Source: a virus. From it: a DNA stretch of 41,764 nucleotides. The notes under the pieces are model-generated. The model ran no database searches. It was not told the origin of the DNA and saw only the letters and a list, made by a program, of their open reading frames with translations. A program made the translations under genes and the position numbers. Where the stretch lies: the IMG/VR virus record IMGVR_UViG_3300025759_000198, positions 1 through 41,764 of that record. One strand, written 5' to 3'. Positions 13,476 to 29,004 of this stretch are shown here, piece by piece (positions within the stretch are counted from its first letter, which is position 1; each line of letters starts with the position of its first letter).

Positions 13476-13549
13476 CAATAATAATAAATAAATATTATTG
13501 TACAAACTTTTTCTAGTAAATGTAACCTAATTACAAATAAATTGTATAA
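13476..13549 (+). promoter_or_regulatory. AT-rich leader of the recombination operon with two dyads
   Basis: Two inverted repeats lie in the 150-bp gap before the ERF gene. CAATAATA / TATTATTG is at 13476-13483 and 13493-13500. TTACAAATAAATTGTATAA at 13531-13549 is close to the early operator-like sites found elsewhere (compare 22268-22286). A -7-like TAACTTAG (13547-13554) would place the transcription start almost at ATG 13559. The promoter geometry seen at the other sites is not kept here, so the promoter is uncertain. Confidence 0.4.
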
Positions 13550-13558
13550 CTTAGTGTT

Positions 13559-14101
13559 ATGAAAGAATTACAAACTAGGTTGTTAAAGGTTCAAGAGGAA
13601 CTCAAAGCACCAAAAAATCAGAGAAACAATTTCGGTAAATATAACTACAGAAGTTGTGAGGACATTTTAGAAGCTGTTAAACCATTATTAGTTAAGCATG
13701 GACTACTTATCACTATTGCCGACCAAGTACATGAAATTGGTAATTATATGTATGTTGAATCTACAGTTATGGTTTCGTATGAAAATGACAGGATTGCGGC
13801 TACGGCACAAGCAGGTATTGATCCAAACAGAAAGGGGATGGATATTGCACAGAGTTTCGGTTCATCGAGTTCATACGCAAGAAAGTACGCCCTTAATGGA
13901 ATGTTCTTAATTGACGATACTAAAGATGCAGATGCTACTAACACTCATGGTAAAACAGAAACTGTTGTTAAGAAGAAGCTAACTGCTGAGATTAAGACTG
14001 CTATGAAGAAAGCAATAGAAAAAGGTCAAATTGAGGCTGTTGTTGCTAAGTTAGAGACTTATCAGTACACAGAGAAAGATAGAGCAGAGATTTTAGGATG
14101 A
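13559..14101 (+). CDS. ERF-family single-strand annealing protein
   Basis: 180 residues. The N-terminus (KVQEELKAPKNQRNNFGKYN, then YRSCEDILEAVKPLL) and the core (DIAQSFGSSSSYARKYALNG, FLIDDTKDADAT) carry the ERF superfamily signature. ERF proteins anneal complementary single strands in phage recombination. The next gene is a YqaJ-type exonuclease, giving the usual exonuclease-annealase pair. The C-terminal 40 residues are Lys/Glu-rich helix, possibly for partner binding. It is the first gene after the AT-rich leader. Confidence 0.88.
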   Translation: MKELQTRLLKVQEELKAPKNQRNNFGKYNYRSCEDILEAVKPLLVKHGLLITIADQVHEIGNYMYVESTVMVSYENDRIAATAQAGIDPNRKGMDIAQSFGSSSSYARKYALNGMFLIDDTKDADATNTHGKTETVVKKKLTAEIKTAMKKAIEKGQIEAVVAKLETYQYTEKDRAEILG

Positions 14102-15187: not shown

Positions 15188-15221
15188 ACTATTTGAATTA
15201 CATTTACAAAAACATTGAATT

Positions 15222-15410
15222 ATGAAGATTGGAAACATTGAATACTTAAACCCACAAGAGTTTGCAGAAGCTAAAGGATGCAGCCTCAAGACAGTTTATA
15301 ACTGGATTAACGCTGGGGAGGACTCTGATGGCTATAAGATAGTTGTCGAGGATATTTTAAAGAAAACTATGATTAACATAGATACATATCAAGGAAAACT
15401 AAATTCTTAG
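15222..15410 (+). CDS. Helix-turn-helix protein (excisionase/MerR-like)
   Basis: 62 residues. The segment NPQEFAEAKGCSLKTVYNWI (about residues 10-29) fits a winged-helix/HTH-17 DNA-binding unit as in excisionases and small phage regulators. A strong terminator lies 13 bases after the stop, so it closes the recombination operon. With no integrase in the genome, a transcription regulator is more likely than an excisionase. Confidence 0.65.
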   Translation: MKIGNIEYLNPQEFAEAKGCSLKTVYNWINAGEDSDGYKIVVEDILKKTMINIDTYQGKLNS

Positions 15411-15455: not shown

Positions 15456-15479
15456 AACTTTATATACAAACTAATTGAA

Positions 15480-16166
15480 ATGGAAGGTTGGATAAAATTA
15501 CACAGAGGATTATTAGAATGGGAATGGTACGATGAACCAAATGTTTTTCGTCTGTTCCTTCATTGCATCCTTAAAGCAAATCACTCAGATAAAAGCTGGA
15601 GAGGGTCTGTCATTAAGAGAGGAGAGTTTGTTACTTCACTACAAAACCTCTCAAATGAGACAAAATTATCTGTTCAGCAAGTTAGAACTTGTTTAAAAAA
15701 ATTAACAAACGAATTAACAATCAAAAGTACGTCACAACATACTGTAATTCAAGTAGTTAAGTACAATGAGTACCAAGATGATAACAAGCAATCTAACAAA
15801 CGAGTAACAAACGAGCAACAAACAAATAACAAACAAATAACAACAACTAAGAATGATAAGAATAATAATAATAGTATATTGTCCTTTGATGATTTTTGGA
15901 ATCTGTATGATTTCAAGGTGGGTAGTAAGACAAAATTGGAAAAGAAATATGCAAGTATCTCTGAGCAAGACAGACAGAAAATAAAAGATCATGTGCCAAT
16001 GTATATTGCTAGTCAACCAGAGAAGCAATTTAGGAAAAGACCTGCTACTTATCTCAACAATGAATCTTGGAATGATGAGATAGTTGGACAGGAAAAAGTT
16101 GAGCAAGATAAGAAATGGTTAGAAAGAAATTCAAAAGACGTAGGAACAGTAAGAGATATATTTTAA
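15480..16166 (+). CDS. Replisome organiser / replication initiation protein
   Basis: 228 residues from ATG 15480. The N-terminal domain (MEGWIKLHRGLLEWEWYDEP, then VFRLFLHCILKANHSD; KRGEFVTSLQNLSNETKLS) is the winged-helix found in phage replisome organisers and DnaD-like loaders. It is followed by an Asn/Gln/Lys-rich linker (about residues 105-140) and a C-terminal helical domain (SFDDFWNLYDFKVGSKTKLE) resembling helicase-loader tails. Such proteins bind the origin and recruit helicase; the primase-helicase gene lies 0.7 kb downstream. Confidence 0.78.
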   Translation: MEGWIKLHRGLLEWEWYDEPNVFRLFLHCILKANHSDKSWRGSVIKRGEFVTSLQNLSNETKLSVQQVRTCLKKLTNELTIKSTSQHTVIQVVKYNEYQDDNKQSNKRVTNEQQTNNKQITTTKNDKNNNNSILSFDDFWNLYDFKVGSKTKLEKKYASISEQDRQKIKDHVPMYIASQPEKQFRKRPATYLNNESWNDEIVGQEKVEQDKKWLERNSKDVGTVRDIF

Positions 16167-16861: not shown

Positions 16862-18679
16862 ATGAGTAAAGTGACAGTAACCCCAAGTGTGCTACAACCA
16901 ACAGACGTACACCACAAAGACATACAAGTATCGTTTGACAGAATAAAAGAAGGTTCATCTCGGCAATCAGTAGTAGAGATTAGAATGTTGCAAAAAGAGA
17001 TGGACAAATGCGATAGGTCAACAGAACAAGGACAAAAAGACTACAAAGAACTAAAGAAGAACAAGGACAATTTAAAGAAAAAATTACCCTCGTGGTCATA
17101 CTCAGGAGTATTTGAGGGACGTAAGAACGCTAGTTGTACTGAGTCTAGTGGTTTAATGGTCTTAGACTTTGATGATATTGATGTAAGCTATGCAAAGAAT
17201 GAACTCAAAAACAGAGATTATATTCTTGCAACGTGGGAATCACCATCTGGTAATGGAGTAAAAGCACTAGCAAAGATTAGTCCAACAACAAAGGATGAAG
17301 AGTACAAGCAAATCTACAAACAGATAGAGTATGATTTAAAATACCTCAACATTGATGACAAGTGTAAGGATATATCAAGAGCCTGTTTTGAGTCCTACGA
17401 TCCTGAAATCTACATAAATCAATCTCCAAAGCAATTTGAGTTAGCACAGATTGATGTCATGGAAGGAATCAGAGGAATGATTTTTAGAAGTGGCGATGGC
17501 AATCTACACGACAGAAGAGTAGCAGCAGGTAATTATGCTGGTGGTTTAGTAGCTGAAGGTCTAATTAGCTATGATGATGCACTAGCAGAACTAAAAGAAG
17601 CTGTCATAAAGAATGGTACTTCTGACATTGAAATGGCTGTTAAGGACTTAGAAGATGGACTAAAGAATGGTATGGGTAGACCATTACCAAAGGAAATGAT
17701 TCCTACTCTAGAAGAACCAAAAGAGACAATATTGGATAAGTACCCAGCACTTAGCTTTGTATCAAATATGCAAGAGGATTTGAACTTTATCCAAAAGCTA
17801 AGAAGAGGAGAAGTAGAGATAGGCAAAGAGACAGGCTATAAGTCTTTAGACGAATACTTTAGATTTAAGGAAGGTAAATTCAATGTCATTATGGGTAGAG
17901 CAAATGTTGGTAAGTCCTACATTGTTTGGTTCTTAATGGCACTAGCAAACAGACTACATGGTTGGAAGTGGATTGTTTTCTCTGGAGAGAATGAGTCGTT
18001 TTCTATACGTCAAGAGTTAGTAAAATTTATTTCAGGAAAGAAAATAGAAGATATATCTGATTGGGAGTTAGAGAAACTAATGGAGTTAGTAGATGATAAC
18101 TTTAAAATCATTAAAGTAAACGACTTAATTACAGCAGAAGAACTGTTAACTTTAGCTGAGGAATTAATGAAAACAGGAGAGTACAAAGGCATGATGATTG
18201 ATCCGTACAATCACCTGAAGATACCACCTAAGTTTTCTACTAGTCCTTATAACTATCACTATGAAATAATCTCTAAGTTCAAGCAATGGAGTGGAGAAAA
18301 GAACTGTACAATCTTTCTAAATACTCACGTTGGAACAATTGGTGCTAGGAAGATACACCAAGATGGTGAGTTCAAAGGACATCCAACTGTACCAGAGAAA
18401 TTTGACATCGAGAATGGTGTTATGTTCGACAACAAAGCAGATGATTTTATCGTAGTACATCGTTACGTGCAAATGCAAGGAAGAGAGTTTATAACAGAGA
18501 TTCATGTTAAGAAAGTTAAAGAGACATGGTCAGGTGGTAGACCTACTCCATTAGGTATTCCTGTTGAACTAACATTAAGCAGACAGAATGGTTTTGGCAG
18601 CTTTTATGACAGCTATGGAAATTCACCATTACAAGAAAAATACATTGATTGGAAAAATGGTTTGCAAAAAGAATTATAA
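16862..18679 (+). CDS. Primase-helicase (BT4734-like N-domain plus RecA-type helicase)
   Basis: 605 residues from ATG 16862. Residues about 1-200 resemble the BT4734/VirE-N type primase-like domain, with VLDFDDID (Asp102, Asp104), SPSGNGVKAL and DISRACFESYDP. A linker leads to a DnaB-like ATPase. Walker A is GRANVGKS (345-352), Walker B is in GMMIDPYNHLKIP, and LNTHVGT is a likely sensor. It should prime and unwind DNA at the fork. The longer reading frame from 16784 would overlap the methylase and is less likely. A promoter-like dyad overlaps the stop codon. Confidence 0.82.
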   Translation: MSKVTVTPSVLQPTDVHHKDIQVSFDRIKEGSSRQSVVEIRMLQKEMDKCDRSTEQGQKDYKELKKNKDNLKKKLPSWSYSGVFEGRKNASCTESSGLMVLDFDDIDVSYAKNELKNRDYILATWESPSGNGVKALAKISPTTKDEEYKQIYKQIEYDLKYLNIDDKCKDISRACFESYDPEIYINQSPKQFELAQIDVMEGIRGMIFRSGDGNLHDRRVAAGNYAGGLVAEGLISYDDALAELKEAVIKNGTSDIEMAVKDLEDGLKNGMGRPLPKEMIPTLEEPKETILDKYPALSFVSNMQEDLNFIQKLRRGEVEIGKETGYKSLDEYFRFKEGKFNVIMGRANVGKSYIVWFLMALANRLHGWKWIVFSGENESFSIRQELVKFISGKKIEDISDWELEKLMELVDDNFKIIKVNDLITAEELLTLAEELMKTGEYKGMMIDPYNHLKIPPKFSTSPYNYHYEIISKFKQWSGEKNCTIFLNTHVGTIGARKIHQDGEFKGHPTVPEKFDIENGVMFDNKADDFIVVHRYVQMQGREFITEIHVKKVKETWSGGRPTPLGIPVELTLSRQNGFGSFYDSYGNSPLQEKYIDWKNGLQKEL

Positions 18680-18714
18680 AAACTTTGTAATATAATTATT
18701 ATTCACTTATTTAG
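18674..18714 (+). promoter_or_regulatory. Promoter with early-type dyad operator (site 1)
   Basis: TTATAAAAACTTTGTAA (18674-18690) is a 17-bp dyad one base different from the perfect site at 23354. Its TTTG (18684-18687) lies 19 bases before TTATTTAG (18707-18714), which is close to the Bacteroidetes -33/-7 arrangement. It precedes the operon that starts at 18729. Confidence 0.6.
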
Positions 18715-18728
18715 ATAAAACAAAAAAA

Positions 18729-18935
18729 ATGACACAAGAACAGCAGTTTTCCATGAGGCGTTTTCTACAAGAAAAATATTATCAAGATACGCTAAAAGCA
18801 GAATCAATTTTAGAGATGAAAATGTTAACAAAAGAATATGTAAGTAATCTGGAAAAAATTGAAAGTGGCGTTAATATCTTTAACAATAACGGCTCAGAGG
18901 ATAGTGACTATGAGTGCATAGGGTGTGGGGCATGA
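18729..18935 (+). CDS. Small hypothetical protein
   Basis: 68 residues, helical and acidic (MTQEQQFSMRRFLQEKYYQD), ending in YECIGCGA. It is the first gene after promoter site 1. Its stop overlaps the next start (ATGA). No family recognised. Confidence 0.6.
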   Translation: MTQEQQFSMRRFLQEKYYQDTLKAESILEMKMLTKEYVSNLEKIESGVNIFNNNGSEDSDYECIGCGA

Positions 18936-19102
18936 GAAATTTATACACAAAAAGGAAGAAAGTTCAGGCACTAATAGACCTAGAACTAAATTTATTAAAA
19001 CAATACACAAAGCATCAGAAGCCAGAGACAAAGGTAATGTTAGACAAAATTAGAAAGATGCAAGTAGAAGCAATAGACAGATTAAAAGAAACACATGGAT
19101 AA
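18932..19102 (+). CDS. Small basic helical protein
   Basis: 56 residues from ATG 18932, chosen because it overlaps the previous stop as ATGA; a GTG at 18914 would extend it by six residues. It is Lys/Arg-rich and helical (LYTKRKKVQALIDLELNLL). A TTATACACA DnaA-box-like nonamer lies inside it at 18941-18949. Confidence 0.55.
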   Translation: MRNLYTKRKKVQALIDLELNLLKQYTKHQKPETKVMLDKIRKMQVEAIDRLKETHG

Positions 19103-19523
19103 CGTAACAGAATACAAAGTGCTAAGAAAAGCACTAGAACTAATTGAAACACACACAAAGGAAGAACTACAAAACAAGTTTCAACTCATAGAGCATGGAG
19201 AAGTACACGACATAATTATTGATGATGTCTGTCAGTCTTATGGTGTTACTCTGGAGAAGATGCAATCCAAAACAAGATTAAGAAATTTAGTAGATGCTAG
19301 ACAAGTATGTATGTATCTACTTAGGAAGTTTACTAATATGTCCTACAGAGATATAGGTCTTTTATTTGGTAGAGACCATTCCACAGCTATACACGCTTGT
19401 AAGTCTGTTGAGGGTAATGCTTACTACGGAGACTATAAATACAAAGTTGAGAAGATAGAGAAAAGATTAAACGCATTATATGACACAGTACAACGCAACA
19501 ATAAAAGGCAATACTCCATCTAA
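19095..19523 (+). CDS. Stand-alone DnaA domain IV protein
   Basis: 142 residues. Residues about 44-108 match the DNA-binding domain IV of DnaA: VDARQVCMYLLRKFTNMSY (66-84), DIGLLFG, then the signature GRDHSTAIHA (92-101). The AAA+ ATPase domain of DnaA is absent. It may bind DnaA boxes at a phage origin or compete with host DnaA. It overlaps the previous gene by 8 bases and the RusA gene by 44 bases. Confidence 0.82.
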   Translation: MDNVTEYKVLRKALELIETHTKEELQNKFQLIEHGEVHDIIIDDVCQSYGVTLEKMQSKTRLRNLVDARQVCMYLLRKFTNMSYRDIGLLFGRDHSTAIHACKSVEGNAYYGDYKYKVEKIEKRLNALYDTVQRNNKRQYSI

Positions 19524-19836
19524 GTCTAATTGCTACATGATAGCACATAAACGTCTAATTAAAACAAAGCGTTTAAAGGACTATGAGGAGTCGTTCTATA
19601 TACAACTACCACCTGAACTGAGAAACATCGACATAACGTCTTATTTTGAGTTCTACGTGGATGTTTTCTATCCCTCACAACGTGCAGATTTAGATAACAG
19701 CCTAAAAATCATACTAGACTGTCTACAAAAGACTAAGACAATTAGGAATGATAACAAGTGTGTTAAGATAGTAGCACAGAAAGCATTAGATAAAGAGAAT
19801 CCAAGAATACAATTCACAATAAAACCCATAGAATAG
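19480..19836 (+). CDS. RusA-family Holliday junction resolvase
   Basis: 118 residues. The catalytic segment is SQRADLDNSLKIILDCLQ (Asp70 and Asp72), typical of RusA. The N-terminus (NTPSKSNCYMIAHKRLIKTK) and C-terminus (VAQKALDKENPRIQFTI) fit. RusA dimers cut four-way junctions made by recombination or replication, which helps clear branched DNA before packaging. It overlaps the DnaA-IV gene by 44 bases, so internal methionines could be the real start. Confidence 0.85.
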   Translation: MTQYNATIKGNTPSKSNCYMIAHKRLIKTKRLKDYEESFYIQLPPELRNIDITSYFEFYVDVFYPSQRADLDNSLKIILDCLQKTKTIRNDNKCVKIVAQKALDKENPRIQFTIKPIE

Positions 19837-19838
19837 TT

Positions 19839-20087
19839 ATGAGTAGATTATTACAAGACATAGTAGACACCTATAGAGACGAAGAAATACTAAAAGCAGA
19901 TGGATTTGATGATGCCGTAATTGGTATAGAAGAAAGCAGCATGAGATTGATATATTCTGTAGAGAAATGTATTACAATTCTGATGAAGGAAATGAGTTTT
20001 GAAGATGCTTTTGATTATTTTAATTACAATGTTTTAGGTGCTTGGGTAGGAGATAAGACACCAATTTGGTGTGAAGATATGATATAA
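19839..20087 (+). CDS. Conserved hypothetical protein
   Basis: 82 residues, acidic and helical. The end (EDAFDYFNYNVLGAWVGDKTP) resembles a conserved small protein of Bacteroidetes phages found near RusA and DnaA-like genes. The function is unknown. Two bases separate it from the RusA stop. Confidence 0.6.
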   Translation: MSRLLQDIVDTYRDEEILKADGFDDAVIGIEESSMRLIYSVEKCITILMKEMSFEDAFDYFNYNVLGAWVGDKTPIWCEDMI

Positions 20088-20102
20088 CAAAAACAAATAA
20101 TA

Positions 20103-20330
20103 ATGATGACAGACAAAGAATTAAAGAAGTATGCAGAAGATTTAATTGGCATGAATGAAGCTGGAATTGCATATCTCAAGCAACTACCTATAAACAGTTT
20201 AGTAGGTATGGCAATCGAAGGACTAGCACTATCGCAGCTTGTTACTGAAATGAAGCAAGACATACATGAAGATGTTGAGAACTTATACAAGGCATTAACT
20301 AGAGACATAGACAAAAAAGACATCAACTAA
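20103..20330 (+). CDS. Hypothetical protein
   Basis: 75 residues (MMTDKELKKYAEDLIGMNEA), acidic and helical. ATG 20106 is an alternative start. Its stop overlaps the next start (TAATG). No family recognised. Confidence 0.55.
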   Translation: MMTDKELKKYAEDLIGMNEAGIAYLKQLPINSLVGMAIEGLALSQLVTEMKQDIHEDVENLYKALTRDIDKKDIN

Positions 20331-20515
20331 TGAGAGTACAATACAAGAAAGTTACAGGTCACAAGAAAATGGCTATTGTAAAAGATTGGTTAAAGCTAGG
20401 TATAAGCTACGATAAGTTAGCAGACAAGCATGACACTACAAGACATATAGTTAGGCGTTCTATACAAGATTATTTGGCAAACACAATGACAAAAAAAGAC
20501 GTAAAAGAATGGTAA
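20330..20515 (+). CDS. Small helix-turn-helix protein
   Basis: 61 residues, basic. The segment DWLKLGISYDKLADKHDTTR (about residues 20-39) followed by HIVRRSIQDYL fits a helix-turn-helix DNA-binding unit. It overlaps both neighbours by a few bases. It may regulate the middle operon or bind DNA in replication. Confidence 0.58.
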   Translation: MRVQYKKVTGHKKMAIVKDWLKLGISYDKLADKHDTTRHIVRRSIQDYLANTMTKKDVKEW

Positions 20516-20787
20516 AACAAAGGGTAATGGTAGATTCTATAGCTTTCATTAAGCTAAAAGTAAAGTACGTGTACAAAGATGACCTGTATTTAGCAGAATC
20601 GGAACTTACACCTTTGGAATATGATAGTAGCTATTGTCTGTCAGAACAGTATGATTGGTTTGACTTAGCTGTTAAGATGTCTGGGATTAATTTATTGGAA
20701 CTTGACCCTGAAGAGTTTGAGATATTTAAAAACAGTTTAGACGTAGAACTATTATTGGATGATAAAATTAATGTATGCCTGAACTGA
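20509..20787 (+). CDS. Hypothetical protein
   Basis: 92 residues, acidic with several Tyr and Leu (YKDDLYLAESELTPLEYDSS). No motif seen. It overlaps its neighbours by 7 and 13 bases, so the operon is tightly packed. Confidence 0.55.
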   Translation: MVKQRVMVDSIAFIKLKVKYVYKDDLYLAESELTPLEYDSSYCLSEQYDWFDLAVKMSGINLLELDPEEFEIFKNSLDVELLLDDKINVCLN

Positions 20788-21080
20788 TGGACAAGATTGA
20801 TAAGGTGAGTTTAGCTGTTGCAGATTGCTTTGATATAGAATATCTAGAGTTGTTTTCTGCAAAGTGGTTTACCGAAATTGAGACTGCTAGACGTTTTGTC
20901 ATTTACATCCTTAACAAACATTACAATTATTCCGTAAATAACTTGTGTTGGGAGTTTGAAAAGACAGATACAAGTATTAATTTTAGTATCAATTATGTAG
21001 ACAATTGGATACATACTGATGAAAAAGCAAAGAAAGATTATTTATATATTATTAGTAAACTAGACAATTATGAGAGTTGA
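20775..21080 (+). CDS. Divergent DnaA domain IV-like protein
   Basis: 101 residues. The segment TARRFVIYILNKHYNYS (about 37-53), then NLCWEFEKTDTSINFSINYV, aligns by eye with DnaA domain IV in the gene at 19095 (DARQVCMYLLRKFTNMS, then DIGLLFGRDHSTAIHACKSV). The helix spacing is kept, but the recognition motif GRDHST is replaced by EKTDTS. If the fold is right, it has lost or changed DnaA-box recognition. The call is inference from pattern alignment. Confidence 0.5.
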   Translation: MPELMDKIDKVSLAVADCFDIEYLELFSAKWFTEIETARRFVIYILNKHYNYSVNNLCWEFEKTDTSINFSINYVDNWIHTDEKAKKDYLYIISKLDNYES

Positions 21081-21381
21081 AGCACAAGGAACTGTAGTCA
21101 AAAAGTTTGACACGTTCACAAAAGGAGATTTTAAGAAGATTGAGTTTGTAGTAAACTGCAAGAATGGAGAGTATGACAATCCTGTAAAACTTACAGCCAC
21201 TACTAAGTTAGCACCTGCTGTTGAAGCTGGACTAAATGTAGGTGATGAGGTAAAGTTCACAGCATTTGTTCAAGGTAATGAGTGGAAGGATAAGTTCTTC
21301 ATCAATCTTAATTTAGCATCGTTTGAAAAAGTAACTGTAGCAACACCAACACCAGATACTGTTGGAGATCTGCCATTCTAA
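21070..21381 (+). CDS. DUF3127-like OB-fold protein (SSB-like)
   Basis: 103 residues. The layout MRVEAQGTVVKKFDTFTKGD, KKIEFVVNC, VGDEVKFTAFVQGNEW and KFFINLNLASFEKV matches DUF3127, an OB-fold family of Bacteroidetes and their phages. The end is GDLPF, an acidic-hydrophobic tip like those that SSB uses to recruit partners. Binding of single-stranded DNA at the fork is likely but inferred. It overlaps the previous gene by 11 bases. Confidence 0.7.
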   Translation: MRVEAQGTVVKKFDTFTKGDFKKIEFVVNCKNGEYDNPVKLTATTKLAPAVEAGLNVGDEVKFTAFVQGNEWKDKFFINLNLASFEKVTVATPTPDTVGDLPF

Positions 21382-21382
21382 T

Positions 21383-21877
21383 ATGCCAAACAAGTACGAG
21401 AAAAAGGGTAAGGTAAGCAAGGCTGAGGCTGTCAAAGGTCTATCTAATGTTGAGGCTAATAAAAGGGAGATACTAAAGAATCTTGGTATGCCTAGCAATA
21501 AAGGATTAGTTAGCAAAGCAATAGAAGGCGTTGTTTCCTACTCTACGTACCAAAAGTATAGAAGAGAAGATGATGACTTCAAGGTTAAGTCTGATGAGGT
21601 CATTGAGGCAATGGAAGAAACTAAACTAGATAAGGTAGAGGAGAAGCTAATAGATGCTATCCTAGACGATGATAAGCAGCTTAGTAAAAACCAAACGGAA
21701 CTTGTTAAGATGTATCTAAAGACTAAAGGAAAGAACAGAGGATACACAGAAAGACAAGAGATAAAACAAGAAGGCGATGGAGGACAGCTACAGATAAATT
21801 ATGTAGTACCAAAGCAAATAGAAAACATTGAAGAACAAGACACAATAGAAATAAAAGGAGAAGAAGATGGCGAATAA
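21383..21877 (+). CDS. Terminase small subunit-like protein (candidate TerS)
   Basis: 164 residues from ATG 21383. ATG 21362 would overlap the previous gene by 20 bases. The N-terminal part is basic (KYEKKGKVSKAEAVKGLSNV). The C-terminal part has LIDAILDDDKQLSKNQTELV then KMYLKTKGKNRGYTERQE, typical of terminase small subunits in Bacteroidetes phages. TerS would select the packaging site and feed TerL, but TerL lies 8.5 kb downstream. A DNA-binding regulator is the alternative. Confidence 0.5.
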   Translation: MPNKYEKKGKVSKAEAVKGLSNVEANKREILKNLGMPSNKGLVSKAIEGVVSYSTYQKYRREDDDFKVKSDEVIEAMEETKLDKVEEKLIDAILDDDKQLSKNQTELVKMYLKTKGKNRGYTERQEIKQEGDGGQLQINYVVPKQIENIEEQDTIEIKGEEDGE

Positions 21878-22151
21878 AGTAATAATATCTAAGAAACCAC
21901 AAGAGGTATTCCAAGTTGATCCTACGTGGAAAGAATACGCAGTTAAACAAGATGATGTAAACGAATCTCTGTTGAGAATAATCTATGACATGAAAGATGT
22001 TAAGGATGTATTGAACCATCTGGAGACAGAATATCACTACGACAAGAGAAGAAAGCACGTATTTTTCTACACCAATAAAGACATTGATGGACTAAGAGAG
22101 TTCATGCAATATTTAGATTATGATATTTCTTTACCAGAGATACTAGAATAA
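21867..22151 (+). CDS. Hypothetical protein, last gene of the replication operon
   Basis: 94 residues (MANKVIISKKPQEVFQVDPT), with charged helices. It overlaps the TerS-like gene by 11 bases. A strong terminator follows 70 bases after the stop. No family recognised. Confidence 0.6.
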   Translation: MANKVIISKKPQEVFQVDPTWKEYAVKQDDVNESLLRIIYDMKDVKDVLNHLETEYHYDKRRKHVFFYTNKDIDGLREFMQYLDYDISLPEILE

Positions 22152-22219
22152 TAAAATAATTTTTATATATTAGAGTAATAGTTTTTATAAGCATAGTAAT
22201 TTTAGTTAGTTAGGAAAGG

Positions 22220-22246
22220 GGAGTTCAGGGGTGGACTCCTTTTTTT
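22220..22246 (+). terminator. Rho-independent terminator closing the replication operon
   Basis: GGAGTTC (22220-22226) pairs with GGACTCC (22233-22239) over 7 bp including one G-T, with loop AGGGGT. A run of seven T's follows. It lies just upstream of promoter site 2. Confidence 0.87.
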
Positions 22247-22267
22247 ATGTACCTATGTGAAACTTTA

Positions 22268-22308
22268 TTACAAATGTTTTGTATAATAAGATAAGATTAT
22301 TATATTAG
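22268..22308 (+). promoter_or_regulatory. Promoter with early-type dyad operator (site 2)
   Basis: TTACAAATGTTTTGTATAA (22268-22286) is an imperfect dyad. Its TTTG (22278-22281) lies 19 bases before TATATTAG (22301-22308), a -7-like box. It follows a terminator and precedes the gene at 22325, as expected for a promoter that starts a new operon. Confidence 0.65.
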
Positions 22309-22324
22309 TAAAAACAAAGCAATT

Positions 22325-22471
22325 ATGGACAAGAAATTAAGAACATTATCAGAAGAGATTTATCAGATTGTAGACCAAGCAGATTGTTATTTGGATGCAA
22401 TAGAAGAACTAGAGGATTATTTAAGAACCTCAACATTTCAAACAATATTAATAGCAGATAAAATAGACTAA
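22325..22471 (+). CDS. Small acidic helical protein
   Basis: 48 residues from ATG 22325 (MDKKLRTLSEEIYQIVDQAD, then CYLDAIEELEDYLRTST). It is a single acidic helical hairpin. It is the first gene after promoter site 2 and ends one base before the next gene. No family recognised. Confidence 0.6.
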   Translation: MDKKLRTLSEEIYQIVDQADCYLDAIEELEDYLRTSTFQTILIADKID

Positions 22472-22472
22472 C

Positions 22473-22763
22473 ATGGAACTACCAAGAACAACTAGACTAG
22501 AGATTTTAGAAGTAACAATGATAGATTATTCTATAATGGACTTAGAATACGCTGTTAAATGCTCTCTAACGGGAGATATCATGTCTACCCATACAGATAC
22601 CTTCGAATACTATAAAGACGCTTATAACACCTCTCATAAAAGTGTATGGGAGTTATGGCTGTCATCACACAATCCAAGTTTATCTGTGTTAGTACAGGTA
22701 AAGTATGGAAGGAATGGTATGATTGAAGAGTTTATACAGGTAGAGGAGTTAAGCTATTATTAA
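22473..22763 (+). CDS. Hypothetical protein
   Basis: 96 residues starting MELPRTTRLEILEVTMIDYS. It alternates beta strands and short helices, contains HKSVWELWLSSHNPSLSVLV and is acidic at the end. It precedes the non-coding RNA region and shares the transcript from promoter site 2. No family recognised. Confidence 0.6.
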   Translation: MELPRTTRLEILEVTMIDYSIMDLEYAVKCSLTGDIMSTHTDTFEYYKDAYNTSHKSVWELWLSSHNPSLSVLVQVKYGRNGMIEEFIQVEELSYY

Positions 22764-22772
22764 AGAAGTACA

Positions 22773-22841
22773 GATACGTATGCGAGTATGAATGGTCGTT
22801 GGACGCTCCTTTATGCAGACGATCAGTATACTGGACGTATC
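22773..22841 (+). ncRNA. Structured RNA element with a closed 7-bp outer stem
   Basis: GATACGT (22773-22779) pairs perfectly with ACGTATC (22835-22841). Inside lie GCGA / TCGT and the palindrome CAGTATACTG (22824-22833), which can form hairpins around a junction. The size (69 nt) and outer stem are tRNA-like, but there is no T-loop motif, so it is not an ordinary tRNA. It lies 9 bases after the stop of the previous gene and just before a tRNA-like element. Confidence 0.4.
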
Positions 22842-22842
22842 G

Positions 22843-22929
22843 GTGAGTGTGTTATGGGTGTTGGCTGAACCCTTTGAGAGTCGCTCTCTCGGTTTTAAAA
22901 AACAAGCAGTTCGAATCTGCAACACTCTC
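22843..22929 (+). tRNA. tRNA-like element (possible degenerate tRNA)
   Basis: A canonical T-arm GCAG-TTCGAAT-CTGC lies at 22906-22920. A D-arm-like GGG/CCC hairpin has GG in the loop. An anticodon-like stem TGAGA/TCTCG has the 7-base loop GTCGCTC, and there is a variable-arm-like GTTTT/AAAAC segment. GTGAGTGT (22843-22850) pairs with ACACTCTC (22922-22929) except for one T-T pair. The linker after the acceptor is longer than normal and base 37 is a pyrimidine. The anticodon would read CGC (Ala), but the alignment is ambiguous and the decoding identity should not be trusted. Confidence 0.42.
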
Positions 22930-23001
22930 TAAGTCTCAACCTATTTTCCCCAAGCTGTTTTTTCTGGAGGTCTGTCTATGTAGGTGAGTACAAATTAATT
23001 T

Positions 23002-23034
23002 AGGAGTGGATAAATTTTCTGCTCCTTTTTTTTT
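23002..23034 (+). terminator. Rho-independent terminator of the RNA region
   Basis: AGGAGTGGA (23002-23010) can pair with TCTGCTCCT (23018-23026) over 9 bp with two G-T pairs, followed by a run of T's to 23034. It would end a transcript carrying the two structured RNA elements upstream. Confidence 0.8.
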
Positions 23035-23129
23035 CTTAAAAAGTGCTGGAAATATTTGAAAAATCGGTTAATGTAGATAGGGTGGTCGGACTTCAGACCC
23101 CCTGACTTTTTGACAATTTCACCAAACAT

Positions 23130-23179
23130 AGTGATAGCAAGGCTTTGAGCATGAAACGCAGTCATAGTAAGGCTTTCAG
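23130..23179 (+). repeat. Two iteron-like copies of a dispersed repeat, 30 bp apart
   Basis: AGTGATAGCAAGGCTTTGAG (23130-23149) and AGTCATAGTAAGGCTTTCAG (23160-23179) match at 17 of 20 positions and are spaced exactly 30 bp apart. Each is followed by ATGAAAC, at 23151 and 23191. Related copies lie at 26053, 27108 and 27187. They could be initiator- or regulator-binding sites. Confidence 0.6.
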
Positions 23180-23206
23180 AAAGGTAATTGCATGAAACTA
23201 TTGCTA

Positions 23207-23235
23207 TTAGTACATTACAGGTAATTTAATGTACT
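23207..23235. promoter_or_regulatory. Inverted repeat AGTACATT / AATGTACT
   Basis: AGTACATT (23209-23216) and AATGTACT (23228-23235) are perfect 8-bp arms around 11 bases. The 10-mer TTAGTACATT at 23207-23216 recurs at 41190-41199 in the late leader. A binding site shared with the late promoter region is possible. Confidence 0.45.
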
Positions 23236-23353
23236 TGTATTTAATGTATATACATGGATTTTTGAATAAGATATTTTTAACCTGTTTAGATAGGTTTATT
23301 TAATCCAGTAATTAGAGACTAAAAAAAAATAATTAGCTAGTATTGAAACTTTA

Positions 23354-23396
23354 TTACAAAAACTTTGTAAAATAGATTATAAGTTTTATATATTTG
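23354..23396 (+). promoter_or_regulatory. Promoter with perfect early-type dyad operator (site 3)
   Basis: TTACAAAAACTTTGTAA (23354-23370) has perfect 7-bp arms around AAC. Its TTTG (23364-23367) lies 21 bases before TATATTTG (23389-23396), an exact TAnnTTTG box. It precedes the operon of tiny genes from 23442. This is the clearest of the five sites. Confidence 0.72.
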
Positions 23397-23441
23397 TAAC
23401 CAACAAAAAATAACTATTAACTAACTATTAAATTTATTACA

Positions 23442-24050
23442 ATGGAAACTACAACTATTAAACAGGAACAGTCTTTTTATAATCCTTACTATTTAAACGG
23501 CAAAAAAATAGACGCAATTGTGTTTTATAAACAAGGCAAAAAGATAGGACAAACAAACTGGTTTAAAGACTTTGGATCTAATAATGATTACCCTGAGGTT
23601 TATCTACCTGAGCAAATTAAGAACAAAAGAAAAATAAATTTAAACAGTAAAGATTCATTTTTGGCAAAAACTACGAATGATATTGACCCTTATAACGGTA
23701 ACTATACTCTTTATTTAAATTTAGATAACTACTATTATACTATTGAAAAATTAGTTCCTAGTCACTCAGATAAATATTATAATAGATTCAAGGATATAAT
23801 GTATATAAAATTAGATGCATTAAAAAGAGTATTAATACTAGATGAAGAAACTAAAGAAAAAAACTATATAACTGTAGATAATAATTATACTATAAAGGTT
23901 GAAATGAATTTTATAAGCCAAAGAACAAAAGAACAAAGATCTATTGAAAAATTAACTGAACTATTAAACAGTAAAAATATAGACGTATCGGAGTGGCAAA
24001 TAAGACAAATAAAAGAAATTTGTAATATATCAGTTAAAAGAAATAAATAA
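23442..24050 (+). CDS. Hypothetical protein, first gene of the miniature-gene operon
   Basis: 202 residues, rich in Lys, Asn and Tyr. The N-terminal part (EQSFYNPYYLNGKKIDAIVF) contains a KQGKKIGQTNWFKDFGS motif. The C-terminal 60 residues form a charged helical region (RSIEKLTELLNSKNIDVSEW). No family recognised. It begins 45 bases after the TATATTTG box of promoter site 3. The leader shares CTAACTATTAAATT with the next gene. Confidence 0.65.
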   Translation: METTTIKQEQSFYNPYYLNGKKIDAIVFYKQGKKIGQTNWFKDFGSNNDYPEVYLPEQIKNKRKINLNSKDSFLAKTTNDIDPYNGNYTLYLNLDNYYYTIEKLVPSHSDKYYNRFKDIMYIKLDALKRVLILDEETKEKNYITVDNNYTIKVEMNFISQRTKEQRSIEKLTELLNSKNIDVSEWQIRQIKEICNISVKRNK

Positions 24051-24075
24051 TTACTAACTATTAAATTATAATACT

Positions 24076-24306
24076 ATGAAATTAACATTCACCAAAGTAA
24101 GTACAGGAAAAAAAGCAACTTATGATATTGCTTTCGCATCACCAGTAAGTAGATCGGTTAAAAAAGATAAGGACACTTTTTTTTATATAGATTTAAACGA
24201 TAAATGTCATATAACTGGTACGCATAAACTTAAGTCGTGTAAAATATCTAAAATAGATAAAAATAAAACAGACTTTGAAATAATTTACTTAATCAATAAA
24301 TACTAA
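24076..24306 (+). CDS. Hypothetical protein
   Basis: 76 residues (MKLTFTKVSTGKKATYDIAF), beta-rich and basic. It looks like a small OB- or SH3-like barrel but has no diagnostic motif. The leader repeats the CTAACTATTAAATT element seen before 23442. Confidence 0.58.
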   Translation: MKLTFTKVSTGKKATYDIAFASPVSRSVKKDKDTFFYIDLNDKCHITGTHKLKSCKISKIDKNKTDFEIIYLINKY

Positions 24307-24317
24307 AATTAGATAAG

Positions 24318-24671
24318 ATGAACAGCTATAAAAAACAACAAAGAGTTAATACTTTAGACTATATAAAAAAAGATATTGAGCCATACGCTACAAAGATAAG
24401 TATTCAAGAAATGGATTCTTTATTAAATACTATAGGCTTATATATAGACTATAACGAAAGTTGGCAATATTACAATACAAGTAACGAAAAAAACTTTTTA
24501 TGTTACGATTTACATGTATATTGTAAAAAGTCTAAAAAACACTGGTGTAATATATATAGTGACTGGTATAAAGAAAACATTAATAAAGGATATACGGAAA
24601 CATATAGAAGATTAAAAGAAATTAGAAATAATTACTATTCTATATATAAACATGCTTTAGTAGAAATTTAA
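24318..24671 (+). CDS. Hypothetical protein
   Basis: 117 residues, Tyr- and Lys-rich, with a Trp/Cys-containing middle (NFLCYDLHVYCKKSKKHWCN). No family recognised. It lies 11 bases after its neighbour in a same-strand series of small genes. Confidence 0.6.
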   Translation: MNSYKKQQRVNTLDYIKKDIEPYATKISIQEMDSLLNTIGLYIDYNESWQYYNTSNEKNFLCYDLHVYCKKSKKHWCNIYSDWYKENINKGYTETYRRLKEIRNNYYSIYKHALVEI

Positions 24672-24682
24672 AATAAGATACA

Positions 24683-24829
24683 ATGAAAATAACAACAAAA
24701 AAAATAAACGGTATATCAATTTATCAAAACTGGTTTTATATATATAATAATCAAATTTATGGCAATAAACTGACAACTATAAATGAAAAAATAAACAACA
24801 AACAAAAAATACTAATACAATGCAAATAA
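24683..24829 (+). CDS. Very small hypothetical protein
   Basis: 48 residues from ATG 24683 (MKITTKKINGISIYQNWFYI), Lys/Asn/Ile-rich. It overlaps the next ORF by 10 bases. The composition matches its neighbours; a function cannot be given. Confidence 0.5.
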   Translation: MKITTKKINGISIYQNWFYIYNNQIYGNKLTTINEKINNKQKILIQCK

Positions 24830-24963
24830 TAAGCTATAAACAAATTAATAATACTATTGAGATTGAATATATAGACAAAGGTATTAAGCTGGTTTATAAG
24901 TCACCTTTGACTGTTTATAATAGTAAATTTTCTAACCTAATAAAATTAATTAGCCATGTATAA
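24820..24963 (+). CDS. Very small hypothetical protein
   Basis: 47 residues from ATG 24820 (MQIISYKQINNTIEIEYIDK), beta-rich. It overlaps the previous ORF by 10 bases and the next by 8 bases, and the chain of overlaps supports translation. Confidence 0.5.
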   Translation: MQIISYKQINNTIEIEYIDKGIKLVYKSPLTVYNSKFSNLIKLISHV

Positions 24964-25147
24964 CATAATAAAAGATTTAAGAACGTTAAAAGCTATTTCA
25001 AAAAGATTCAATTTGCAATTTGATAAAGTATTTAAATATAATATAGGTAAAGACTTTTATGGAACTATAGAGTATAAAAATAAGAAGTATAAATTAAAAT
25101 ATTTCGACGGTTGCTTTTATCCTTATTTAATAGAGTTAAAAAAATAA
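24956..25147 (+). CDS. Hypothetical protein
   Basis: 63 residues, basic (MYNIIKDLRTLKAISKRFNL), with a beta-rich second half (GTIEYKNKKYKLKYFDGCFY). No family recognised. It overlaps the previous ORF by 8 bases. Confidence 0.55.
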   Translation: MYNIIKDLRTLKAISKRFNLQFDKVFKYNIGKDFYGTIEYKNKKYKLKYFDGCFYPYLIELKK

Positions 25148-25150
25148 ACT

Positions 25151-25303
25151 ATGGATAATAAAATAATAGAATTCATACAGGAACTTAAAAAAGGTTATCC
25201 ATTAAGCCAATTGGATCAATTAAGGGATAAACTAAACAACGACGACCTTTATATAAATATTTTAGAGCTAACAATAAATCAATTACTAACTAATAAAAAA
25301 TAA
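25151..25303 (+). CDS. Very small helical protein
   Basis: 50 residues from ATG 25151 (MDNKIIEFIQELKKGYPLSQ, then LDQLRDKLNNDDLY). It forms a helical hairpin pattern. Three bases separate it from the previous stop. Confidence 0.55.
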   Translation: MDNKIIEFIQELKKGYPLSQLDQLRDKLNNDDLYINILELTINQLLTNKK

Positions 25304-25307
25304 TACT

Positions 25308-25553
25308 ATGAATCTATCCGAATTAAAACACTTTAAGACAATTAAAACAAGTAATAAATACGGTGAAAATTTTACTATAAAATTGCATTCTGTTTATTAC
25401 AAAATGAATCATGATACTAAAAAATGCTTTTTAGCCTACGATGGATCATGGCAATATAATAATGATACACCTTCAAACGTATACGGTCAAAGTATGTTAG
25501 AATTAAAAAGATTCATTAAAAAAGAAGGTACAATTGAATATAAATTTAAATAG
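25308..25553 (+). CDS. Hypothetical protein
   Basis: 81 residues (MNLSELKHFKTIKTSNKYGE), Lys-rich and beta-rich, with FLAYDGSWQYNNDTPSNVYG in the middle. It resembles the product of 24318 in the Tyr/Trp-rich style (SWQYYN and SWQYNN both occur). That may reflect a shared fold, but the similarity is short. Confidence 0.57.
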   Translation: MNLSELKHFKTIKTSNKYGENFTIKLHSVYYKMNHDTKKCFLAYDGSWQYNNDTPSNVYGQSMLELKRFIKKEGTIEYKFK

Positions 25554-25561
25554 ATAATACT

Positions 25562-25852
25562 ATGAAAGATGAAGTTACACATAAACAAGACTTTGCAATA
25601 TTTGAGCATAGATTCAAACAGCTGCAAGAATTAAAAGAAGAGGTTAATACTTATAAGACATTATTAAAGGAAGAAATCAATACTAACTTTGTTGCCATCC
25701 CTGAGCACGTATTGAATCATTTACCTATGGAACAATATTATACTAATGATACAATTTTAAAGGATTTATTAGAAGAGTATACAAAGTTATTACAAGACTA
25801 TAATAAACTTAAAAATAGAAACTTATTACAAAGATTATTTAACATAGATTAA
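25562..25852 (+). CDS. Coiled-coil hypothetical protein
   Basis: 96 residues, mostly helical (KDEVTHKQDFAIFEHRFKQL, then QELKEEVNTYKTLLKEEINT). Two coiled-coil segments flank a short central loop. Its leader reads ATAATACTATG, as in neighbouring genes. No family recognised. Confidence 0.6.
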   Translation: MKDEVTHKQDFAIFEHRFKQLQELKEEVNTYKTLLKEEINTNFVAIPEHVLNHLPMEQYYTNDTILKDLLEEYTKLLQDYNKLKNRNLLQRLFNID

Positions 25853-25863
25853 AATTAGATATT

Positions 25864-26028
25864 ATGAAAACTAAGGAACAAATAGAAAAAAGAATAAACC
25901 AAATAGAAAAAAGAATTGAGCAGTTATGGATAAGATACGATAAGCATAAAACTGAATTTTATTACAATAGAATAGAAACTTTAGAGGAAAAAATACAATT
26001 ATTAAATTGGATTCTATGTAAAGAATAA
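25864..26028 (+). CDS. Small coiled-coil protein
   Basis: 54 residues from ATG 25864 with two internal near-repeats (EQIEKRIN and NQIEKRIEQL), highly charged and helical. It lies 11 bases after the previous gene and is the last of this run before a non-coding gap and promoter site 4. Confidence 0.57.
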   Translation: MKTKEQIEKRINQIEKRIEQLWIRYDKHKTEFYYNRIETLEEKIQLLNWILCKE

Positions 26029-26052
26029 AAAAGTAAAAAAAAATTACTTTTG

Positions 26053-26080
26053 TGTAATGCAATAATACAGGGCTTTTTAT
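26053..26080. repeat. Dispersed repeat copy (TGTAATGCA...GGCTTT)
   Basis: TGTAATGCAATAATACAGGG followed by CTTTTTAT occupies 26053-26080. Related copies are at 27108-27135 and 27187-27216 and, without the TGTAAT start, at 23130-23179. Confidence 0.5.
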
Positions 26081-26122
26081 AAAAGATTAGCCCTAAAATT
26101 GTATATACTATTGTAACCTTTA

Positions 26123-26163
26123 TTACAAAAATTATGTAATACTAATTATAATTACTATCTTTA
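26123..26163 (+). promoter_or_regulatory. Promoter with early-type dyad operator (site 4)
   Basis: TTACAAAAATTATGTAA (26123-26139) is the dyad with one arm mismatch. TATG (26133-26136) replaces TTTG and lies 19 bases before TATCTTTA (26156-26163). It stands 22 bases before ATG 26185. Confidence 0.58.
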
Positions 26164-26184
26164 CAACAACAAAAAAAAATTACT

Positions 26185-26427
26185 ATGAAAAACGCTATCG
26201 AAATCAAAAGAGAATTAATAAATAACAAAGTGGGAGAAAACGCTACTATGGAGAAATTTCAGGTAACTTATAAAGGTTATACGATTCAAAAGATAGAGAG
26301 GATTGATTCTAGCGAATGGAAAATTATTAGCACTTACATGAGAGAAAAGCAAGAATGTAACCTTATAAAGACATACACTAAAGGAAGTGACTTTGATAAA
26401 GCATTAAATAGAATTATAAAGAAATAA
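26185..26427 (+). CDS. Hypothetical protein
   Basis: 80 residues (MKNAIEIKRELINNKVGENA), with a beta-rich middle (FQVTYKGYTIQKIERIDSSE). ATG 26248 could be an internal start. It is directly downstream of promoter site 4. No family recognised. Confidence 0.6.
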   Translation: MKNAIEIKRELINNKVGENATMEKFQVTYKGYTIQKIERIDSSEWKIISTYMREKQECNLIKTYTKGSDFDKALNRIIKK

Positions 26428-26432
26428 ACAAA

Positions 26433-26450
26433 GGGGCGAAAGCCCCATTT
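26433..26450 (+). terminator. GAAA-tetraloop hairpin
   Basis: GGGGC-GAAA-GCCCC (26433-26446) followed by ATTT. The GNRA loop and 5 GC pairs make a very stable hairpin with a weak tail, so it may be a partial terminator or an mRNA end stabiliser between two genes. Confidence 0.55.
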
Positions 26451-26475
26451 AAAACACTACTAAAAAAACTATATT

Positions 26476-26634
26476 ATGGAAAACTTAAATTACGGATTGA
26501 AAAAAATTGAAGAATGGACATTGCTAGGATTGAGTAAGAAGCAACAGCTTGCAATTATTAATGAATGGATGAATCAAAAGATTGATGATAAAAATATGCA
26601 AACATTGATTCTAATGAAAAATATTCTAGAATAA
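26476..26634 (+). CDS. Very small helical protein
   Basis: 52 residues from ATG 26476 (MENLNYGLKKIEEWTLLGLS, then KKQQLAIINEWMNQK). It is helical and possibly bihelical. It follows the tetraloop hairpin and precedes two terminators. Confidence 0.57.
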   Translation: MENLNYGLKKIEEWTLLGLSKKQQLAIINEWMNQKIDDKNMQTLILMKNILE

Positions 26635-26662
26635 TAAAACCAACAAATAAAACATTATTATA

Positions 26663-26693
26663 AGCCTTACTATTAATTTAGTAGGGCTTTTTT
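26663..26693 (+). terminator. Rho-independent terminator
   Basis: AGCCTTACTA (26663-26672) pairs with TAGTAGGGCT (26679-26688) over 10 bp with one G-T pair, followed by T's. It ends the operon from promoter site 4. Confidence 0.83.
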
Positions 26694-26709
26694 ATTTAAA
26701 GTACATTAT

Positions 26710-26728
26710 AGCCCGTTTAAGGGCTTTT
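26710..26728 (+). terminator. Second terminator in tandem
   Basis: AGCCC (26710-26714) pairs with GGGCT (26721-26725) and is followed by TTTCTTGTTT. It lies 17 bases after the first terminator and would act as backup. Confidence 0.62.
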
Positions 26729-27107
26729 CTTGTTTCTATAATGTTATGTATCAATAGCTATAAATAAAAGCCTTTAAAATAGCTTATAATAAGTATTAAG
26801 TATTAAATCTATATAAGTAGTTCTAACTCAATACCTTACAACAGTTTACGTAGTATTAACCTAATCCAGTCAATAATAATACAGGCAAAACAAGCCATAT
26901 AAGGAACTTAAATTAGTCAAGTGGTATAAGTATATCAAATTATATAGAAAGTGGCTTAGAACGTCTAAAAAGGGTATTCTCGAATAAGTTTAAGGTTTAT
27001 TTGGTTTGCATTGTTCCATGCACAAAAAACTTAATGTAAAACCTTTACAATCATGACATATTGTCAAAATAGCACTTGGATTAGTATCTATGAATCTTAG
27101 AATCTTC

Positions 27108-27135
27108 TGTAATGCAGTAATACAAGGCGTTTTAG
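27108..27135. repeat. Dispersed repeat copy
   Basis: TGTAATGCAGTAATACAAGG followed by CGTTTTAG. It shares its first 20 bases with the 26053 copy apart from two changes. Confidence 0.5.
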
Positions 27136-27186
27136 TTTCTATTTAACATAATACTAATTATAAGACAAAATATAATAGGTATTGGC

Positions 27187-27216
27187 TGTAATGCAGTGGT
27201 GATAAGGGTTTCAGAG
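27187..27216. repeat. Dispersed repeat copy
   Basis: TGTAATGCAGTGGTGATAAG followed by GGTTTCAGAG. The GCAGT, ATAAGG and TTTCAG parts match the 23160 copy (GCAGTCATAGTAAGGCTTTC). Confidence 0.48.
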
Positions 27217-27334
27217 TCTAGAAGTCTAATTTTGCGTTCTGAACATATCCTGAAATGTACTACACCCCATACAATATTTTTTCTCCCATAACTCGTTACA
27301 AAGCCTTTATAATTTTTTTGGGTTCTAAAACTTT

Positions 27335-27376
27335 ATACAAAACATTTGAAACAATTAAATACTTTTTGTAGTATTG
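27335..27376 (+). promoter_or_regulatory. Promoter with early-type dyad operator (site 5)
   Basis: ATACAAAACATTTGAAA (27335-27351) is a weaker dyad. TTTG (27345-27348) lies 20 bases before TAGTATTG (27369-27376). The first credible gene downstream begins at 27525, so the transcript would have a leader of about 140 bases containing the 16-bp palindrome. Confidence 0.52.
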
Positions 27377-28673: not shown

Positions 28674-28837
28674 TGGCAAGAGAGACAGATCCTAAGAAAA
28701 GAATGGAAATATGCAGAAAATGCCCATTTATGATTCCTAAAGTAGAGGTTTGTAAAAAATGTGGCTGTATCTTGTTTGCTAAGACTAAAGTTAAGTGGGC
28801 AGATTGCCCTGTAGGAAGCTGGAAAAAGGAGGATTAG
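28673..28837 (+). CDS. Small zinc-ribbon-like protein
   Basis: 54 residues from ATG 28673. Cys pairs CRKC and CKKCGC followed by a single Cys (WADCPVGSWK) form a zinc-ribbon pattern common in phage genes. Its 3' end overlaps the end of the minus-strand gene by 4 bases. Confidence 0.65.
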   Translation: MARETDPKKRMEICRKCPFMIPKVEVCKKCGCILFAKTKVKWADCPVGSWKKED

Positions 28838-29004
28838 TTTCCTCCCTTCTCACTAGCATATTCTTTCATGATGTTTATGAACATATTGATGTTATCATTC
28901 ATGTTAGCATCTCTCTTGATTTGGTGCATCACTTCCCTTGCAGCTTTGGTTGTTCGCTTGGCAGATTTATCTTTCTGTTCTTTTCGATTTCTTGACTTAG
29001 CCAT
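28834..29004 (-). CDS. Only minus-strand gene: small basic protein
   Basis: 56 residues on the minus strand, from ATG (complement of CAT at 29002-29004) to TAA (complement of 28834-28836). The first 30 residues are strongly basic (MAKSRNRKEQKDKSAKRTTK) and the rest is an amphipathic helix (NMNDNINMFINIMKEYASEK). The plus-strand ORF across this stretch is hydrophobic and unlikely. The gene is divergent from the packaging operon, with a 17-bp palindrome in between, so a DNA-binding regulator is an attractive but unproven idea. Confidence 0.6.
   Translation of the reverse strand: MAKSRNRKEQKDKSAKRTTKAAREVMHQIKRDANMNDNINMFINIMKEYASEKGGN

Follow-up and report, generated by a model that had tools for sequence, protein, structure and literature searches.

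The window analyzed here is the whole of IMG/VR virus record IMGVR_UViG_3300025759_000198 (G000; 41,764 bases), in which a 17-bp dyad, TTACAAA-N3-TTTGTAA, recurs at promoters and gene starts. On the basis of comparative sequence analyses, this dyad very probably serves as an operator for early and replication transcription units, most of which it precedes, in a clade of uncultivated flavobacterial siphoviruses whose probable hosts are marine-type Bacteroidetes. Judging by a large terminase that shares 44% identity with its counterparts in Flavobacterium phage 11b and Cellulophaga phage phi10:1, the window is probably the genome of a flavobacterial siphovirus. Its last 316 bases (41449-41764) repeat bases 1-316 (312 of 316 identical, 4 mismatches), so that the genome is probably nearly complete at ~41.4 kb (about 41,448 bp); the record itself lists no end repeat. 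Noncoding sequence makes up about 11% of the window, and no lysogeny genes were noticed in it.

Dyads and neighboring genes

The original prediction comprised five dyads (sites C, D, E, G, and F below), all of which were recovered, and a related dyad before the recombination operon (site A), which proved real. Similar dyads at 15204 and 15464 adjoin start codons, and a further copy (F0) was absent from that prediction. Relatives of the phage are denoted by L numbers.

13531..13547 (+): dyad A, TTACAAATAAATTGTAT, before erf; an overlapping -7-like box, TAACTTAG (13547-13554), ends 4 nt before the erf ATG (13559)
13559..14101 (+): erf, ERF single-strand annealing protein (PF04404, E 1.5e-38), first gene of the recombination operon
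15204..15220 (+): dyad B, TTACAAAAACATTGAAT, 1 bp before the ATG of the HTH_17 gene
15222..15410 (+): HTH_17 gene, 62-amino-acid predicted winged helix-turn-helix (HTH) protein (Xis/Cox/BldC-like), candidate regulator
15464..15480 (+): weaker dyad, ATACAAACTAATTGAAA, overlapping the ATG (15480) of a DnaD-like replication gene; matrix score 14-15; kept in L005/L006 only
16862..18679 (+): BT4734-like/DnaB-like primase-helicase gene, its stop codon inside dyad C
18674..18690 (+): dyad C, TTATAAAAACTTTGTAA, 1 mismatch, holding the helicase stop codon; box TTATTTAG at 18707-18714 (19-bp spacer); next gene at 18729
18729..22151 (+): replication operon downstream of dyad C, with two DnaA domain IV proteins (19095 and 20775) and small proteins without assigned function
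22268..22284 (+): dyad D, TTACAAATGTTTTGTAT, 1 mismatch, after a terminator hairpin (22227-22240); -7 box TATATTAG at 22301-22308; next gene at 22325
23343..23353 (+): upstream third half-site, TTGAAA plus CTTTA, before dyad E; TTGWAACTTTATTACAAA is kept in the window and L013
23354..23370 (+): dyad E, TTACAAAAACTTTGTAA, 0 mismatches; -7 box TATATTTG at 23389-23396; next gene at 23442
26123..26139 (+): dyad G, TTACAAAAATTATGTAA, 1 mismatch; box TATCTTTA at 26156-26163; next gene at 26185
27296..27312 (+): dyad F0, TTACAAAGCCTTTATAA, 1 mismatch; a better copy 39 bp upstream of 27335
27335..27351 (+): dyad F, ATACAAAACATTTGAAA, 2 mismatches; doubtful -7 box TAGTATTG at 27369-27376, also kept in L009 and L007

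The half-sites TTACAA and TTGTAA have centers 11 bp apart. The element is an inverted repeat, not the direct repeats one helical turn apart of Xis/Cox/BldC-type sites. At several sites a third half-site lies 11 to 12 bp upstream (besides that before dyad E, at 22257-22267, 26111-26122 [TTGTAA-CCTTTA], and 13520-13530 [ATGTAA-CCTAA]), and some sites have a second dyad. Four of the five predicted sites had been placed within about 50 bases of a gene; the distances from C, D, E, G, and F are 38, 40, 71, 45, and 173 bp. Of two sites said to follow terminators, only dyad D directly follows a terminator-like hairpin; the other hairpin (23002-23026) lies ~330 bp before dyad E.

Excess over chance and conservation in the clade

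The dyad was found in the window once with 0 mismatches, 5 times with ≤1, and 9 times with ≤2, compared with means of 0.01, 0.09, and 1.24 (maxima of 1, 2, and 5) in 300 dinucleotide shuffles. Among 105 palindromes with permuted arm letters, the real dyad alone exceeded one hit in the window. A position matrix was then built exclusively from the sites of relatives and run over the window. Its nine best places were 23354, 13531, 22268, 15204, 26123, 18674, 15464, 27335, and 27296, all of them gene starts or intergenic; equally good matches at random places inside genes, which would have spoken against the original prediction, were not among them. At a matrix score of 13, the window contained 14 strand-hits, against 1.1 in shuffled sequence.

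The relatives were collected by their helicase, terminase, YqaJ, and HTH_17 proteins (YqaJ, 68 to 81% identical). As the original prediction anticipated for related phages, dyads were present at orthologous places across this diverged clade (L005/L006, L007, L009/L092, L013, L014, L015, L016, and L017). A dyad precedes erf in eight loci (the window, L005, L006, L013, L014, L015, L016, and L017), stands directly before the HTH_17 start codon in the window, L005, L006, L013, L014, L092, and L017, and covers the helicase stop codon in seven loci despite differing helicase C termini. Dyad C is identical at 17 of 17 positions in L013, L092, and L016 and at 16 of 17 in L017. Dyads were also found after a terminator, before a small-gene block, and before the last unit, in three loci each. 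The orthologues of dyad D (L092, 7643; L013, 18462) have a perfect TATATTTG at 19 bp, those of dyad E (L092, 9316/9339; L013, 19557/19579) are two tandem dyads 22 to 23 bp apart, and the F0/F pair recurs in L009 (6747/6787) and L007 (1021/1061) with a separation of 40 bp (39 bp in the window). Arm identity was 0.86 to 1.0 in 12 of 14 pairwise comparisons, the exceptions being the right arms of E (0.67) and F0 (0.57), compared with 0.22 to 0.67 for the flanks. In seven relative records, 25 dyad matches with ≤2 mismatches were detected, against 4 for a reversed control pattern.

The left arm is conserved about as strongly as the right. Across 26 clade sites, symmetric positions have nearly equal counts (T2/A16, 26 each; A5/T13, 26 and 25; A6/T12, 26 and 25; C4/G14, 22 and 25). 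This equality is expected of a symmetric dimer rather than of a bare -33 element.

HNH endonuclease genes were repeatedly inserted beside dyad-controlled genes (L013, 8960-9415; L016, 2457-3050; L017, 10429-10893). In L013 the HNH gene lies between the dyad and erf, and in L016 the dyad before the HTH_17 gene was lost where such a gene was inserted.

Outside the clade, the cultured flavophages P12024L, 11b, phi10:1, and P12002L showed no motif excess to speak of; Flavobacterium phage 11b (L095) has two matrix hits above a score of 13 (31822 and 1554), with 0.2 expected in shuffles. The strict dyad with a -7 box gave scattered single matches and no regulon across viral contigs. A YqaJ scan of genome contigs revealed no prophage relative. 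Among wider YqaJ relatives (L019-L090), dyads with ≤1 mismatch fall inside three recurrent coding families and represent chance matches; these relatives were therefore not counted as carriers of the motif. L011 was rejected as a relative; its pattern match lies inside a gene of an unrelated phage. By these scans, the element is a property of one phage clade. No report of the motif was found in the literature, and a limited search also gave no regulatory operator for phages of Flavobacteriia.

Promoter geometry and proposed action of a bound protein

The prediction that TAnnTTTG-like boxes follow the dyads at 19 to 21 bases was borne out for spacing but unevenly for box quality. The spacers at C, D, E, G, and F, which separate the TTTG of the right arm (TATG at 26123) from the -7 box, are 19, 19, 21, 19, and 20 bp. 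The box at 23389 (TATATTTG) is perfect, TATATTAG, TATCTTTA, and TAGTATTG match at 5 of 6 positions, and TTATTTAG at 18707 matches at 4 of 6. Because quality varies, the boxes alone are weak evidence, and those at 18707, 26156, and 27369 are poor. In terms of the sigma-ABfr architecture (TAHHTTTG ~19 to 21 bp after TTTG), 23354 and certain orthologues of D and A have a perfect box; the other sites reach only 4 to 5 of 6. The promoter at 27335 is doubtful, since TAGTATTG carries a G that almost never occurs at that position in Flavobacterium -7 boxes (PMC6847099). A sigma-70-type promoter scan of the window was uninformative (86 found, 88 expected).

In Flavobacterium johnsoniae, TAHHTTTG lies at -12 to -5 and transcription starts 4 to 5 nt later (PMC6847099). 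By this rule, the dyad center falls at -37 (18674, 22268, and 26123), -38 (27335), or -39 (23354) but at -20 before erf. The -7-like box there, kept in L013, L014, and L015, ends 4 nt before the ATG; the predicted start is therefore the ATG itself and the erf transcript is predicted to be leaderless. The dyad is thus not simply a promoter -33 element, as had been proposed: before erf it occupies the stretch that separates the -33 region from the -7 box, and at 15204 it adjoins the ATG of the HTH gene. The other part of that proposal, a single regulator for all of these operons, is supported by the excess over chance, the equal arms, the orthologous places, and the performance of the relatives' matrix.

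Taken as a whole, the observations make it fairly likely that a single dimeric, sequence-specific, and likely phage-encoded protein uses the dyad as its operator and thereby controls early and replication units. This putative dimer would bind the TTACAA and TTGTAA half-sites on one face of the helix, given their 11-bp center distance, with binding sometimes extended by a third half-site or by a second dyad 22 to 23 or 39 to 40 bp away. The bound protein would cover the -33 region at promoters C, D, E, and G (center at about -37 to -39), sit between the -33 region and the -7 box at erf, and block the start at the HTH_17 gene. It may silence all of these units at once, perhaps when late genes take over, and limit expression of its own gene. 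We lean toward repression as its main effect; the variable placement of the dyad, near -20 at erf and adjoining a start codon elsewhere, suits a steric repressor better than an activator.

Several points weigh against this interpretation. The relatives are metagenome records, several of them short, and no orthologous copy of site G was found in L009. The dyads that entered the base counts were chosen partly by their likeness to the consensus. HTH_17-type proteins, such as Apl and BldC, bind direct repeats one turn apart and not dyads (PMC7498355, PMC5859096), so that the inverted repeat speaks against the HTH_17 protein as the binder or against a typical mode of binding. Finally, the 19 (+1/+2)-bp spacing to the -7 box and the many nonconsensus -7 boxes are just as compatible with a class-II-type activator.

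Such an activator, bound to the same operator, would bring the host RNA polymerase to promoters whose -7 and -33 elements are weak and turn the units on together. The constant position of the dyad center (-37 to -39 in C, D, E, F, and G), the 19-bp spacer in most orthologues, the mostly imperfect -7 boxes, and the weakness of the Flavobacterium -33 element (PMC6847099) all agree with activation. However, the erf site near -20 and the HTH_17 site adjoining the ATG are places where a class-II activator cannot act, and D and E have perfect -7 boxes (TATATTTG) in some members of the clade; we regard activation as somewhat unlikely.

Candidate binding proteins and significance

The operator's binder is probably encoded by the phage. 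A clade-specific binder is likely, because the cultured flavophages lack a motif excess and no stretch retrieved from host genomes contained more than one strict site. The HTH_17 protein (15222) is the best-placed candidate, if a tentative one: it is conserved in the clade with an almost unchanged HTH region, and its gene is preceded by a dyad. Its Pfam HTH_17 match was below the family cutoff, and only one of five AlphaFold2 models was confident (predicted local distance difference test score of 86, against 48 to 54 in the other four). Foldseek gave probabilities of 0.93 to 0.99 to BldC and Xis chains but E values of 0.09 to 0.4; the meaningful structure matches were BldC (6ama), Pukovnik Xis (4j2n), and P2 Cox (4lhf). 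We consider it unlikely that, in a phage with no lysogeny genes noticed, this small Xis/BldC-like protein has become the master regulator of the entire early and replication program. It would then read half-sites that alternate in orientation along one face of the helix, at positions that range from the -33 region to start codons, some of them leaderless.

Another phage HTH protein could bind the dyad, namely, the DnaA domain IV proteins (19095 and 20775) or an HTH_23 protein (20330), which are conserved in the clade and encoded downstream of dyad C. We doubt this: phi10:1 has a DnaA-like gene yet no motif excess, and conservation of the HTH_23 protein is only 43%, with changes in its HTH region, whereas the motif has stayed the same. 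The DnaA box, TTATNCACA, is asymmetric and different from the dyad; the dyads were rejected as DnaA boxes on comparison by eye.

Borrowing of a host operator, with a host transcription factor as the binder, appears less probable still. The perfect dyad with a -7 box does occur in some Bacteroidota genomes, but a scan of 84,980 bacterial and archaeal genomes gave 52 stretches with one match each and no regulon, so the proposed search for the motif in hosts returned no stretch with more than one strict site; the phage's own host is not identified and hence was outside this test. Moreover, the recurrent matches (Aquirufa, Lishizhenia, and Saprospiraceae) are part of another operator, which is longer (AACTA-N6-TAGTT). 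These repeats occur in Bacteroidota promoters (L108, L109, L144, L147, and L152) before a gene for ~122 amino acids (82 in the cut contig L109) and are probably a separate, autoregulated operator.

Very improbable is an element without a regulator, that is, a host sigma-factor promoter motif in which a conserved flank extends the -33 TTTG: the right arm provides TTTG 19 to 21 bp from a -7 box at most of the five sites, but the left arm is conserved like the right and was found, at ≤1 mismatch, in none of 33 other noncoding flavophage promoters, and at sites A and B the dyad persists although it does not serve as the -33 element. An RNA hairpin was rejected, as the predicted start lies downstream of most sites; Rfam detected nothing over the window at gathering scores.

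Several features of the window lie outside the dyads. The ~400-bp noncoding region at 22940-23350, which is conserved in L092 and L013, contains a terminator as well as repeated TTTAATGTA words and is possibly a replication origin, given the two DnaA domain IV proteins nearby. A tRNA-like sequence at 22840-22930 (GCAGTTCGAATCTGC loop and possible acceptor arm), rejected by ARAGORN and Rfam and absent from L092 and L013, is possibly a decayed tRNA. A small gene at 28837-29004 (-), for 55 to 56 amino acids with a basic N terminus, stands in an otherwise plus-strand genome; L009 has a similar minus-strand gene at the equivalent place (8556-8732).

The dyads show features expected of a multicopy phage operator, with copies beyond chance, placement at promoters or gene starts, and conservation at orthologous places. 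As in lambda OL/OR and the stoperators of cluster A mycobacteriophages (PMC6550527), one short operator is repeated at early promoters, here for what we infer to be a single phage protein. Unlike those systems, the window has no lysogeny genes that we noticed, and its dyad also adjoins start codons; stoperators are asymmetric (PMC9283540), whereas the dyad is symmetric. The fold tentatively predicted for the 62-amino-acid HTH_17 protein is that of Xis/Cox/Apl/BldC proteins (P2 Cox, 186 Apl, and Streptomyces BldC), members of which regulate early promoters, but their sites are direct repeats (PMC7498355, PMC5859096) and the half-sites here alternate in orientation. To varying degrees, the five sites resemble Bacteroidetes sigma-ABfr promoters (-33 TTTG/-7 TAHHTTTG; PMC6847099) in layout and in their 19- to 21-bp spacing and differ from them in the conserved left arm that forms the dyad, which other flavophage promoters lack.

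The dyads define a candidate regulon with at least seven sites and indicate which genes may switch together in these phages. The clade offers matched natural variants of its promoters, and the dyad promoters could provide a regulated promoter for Bacteroidetes genetics.

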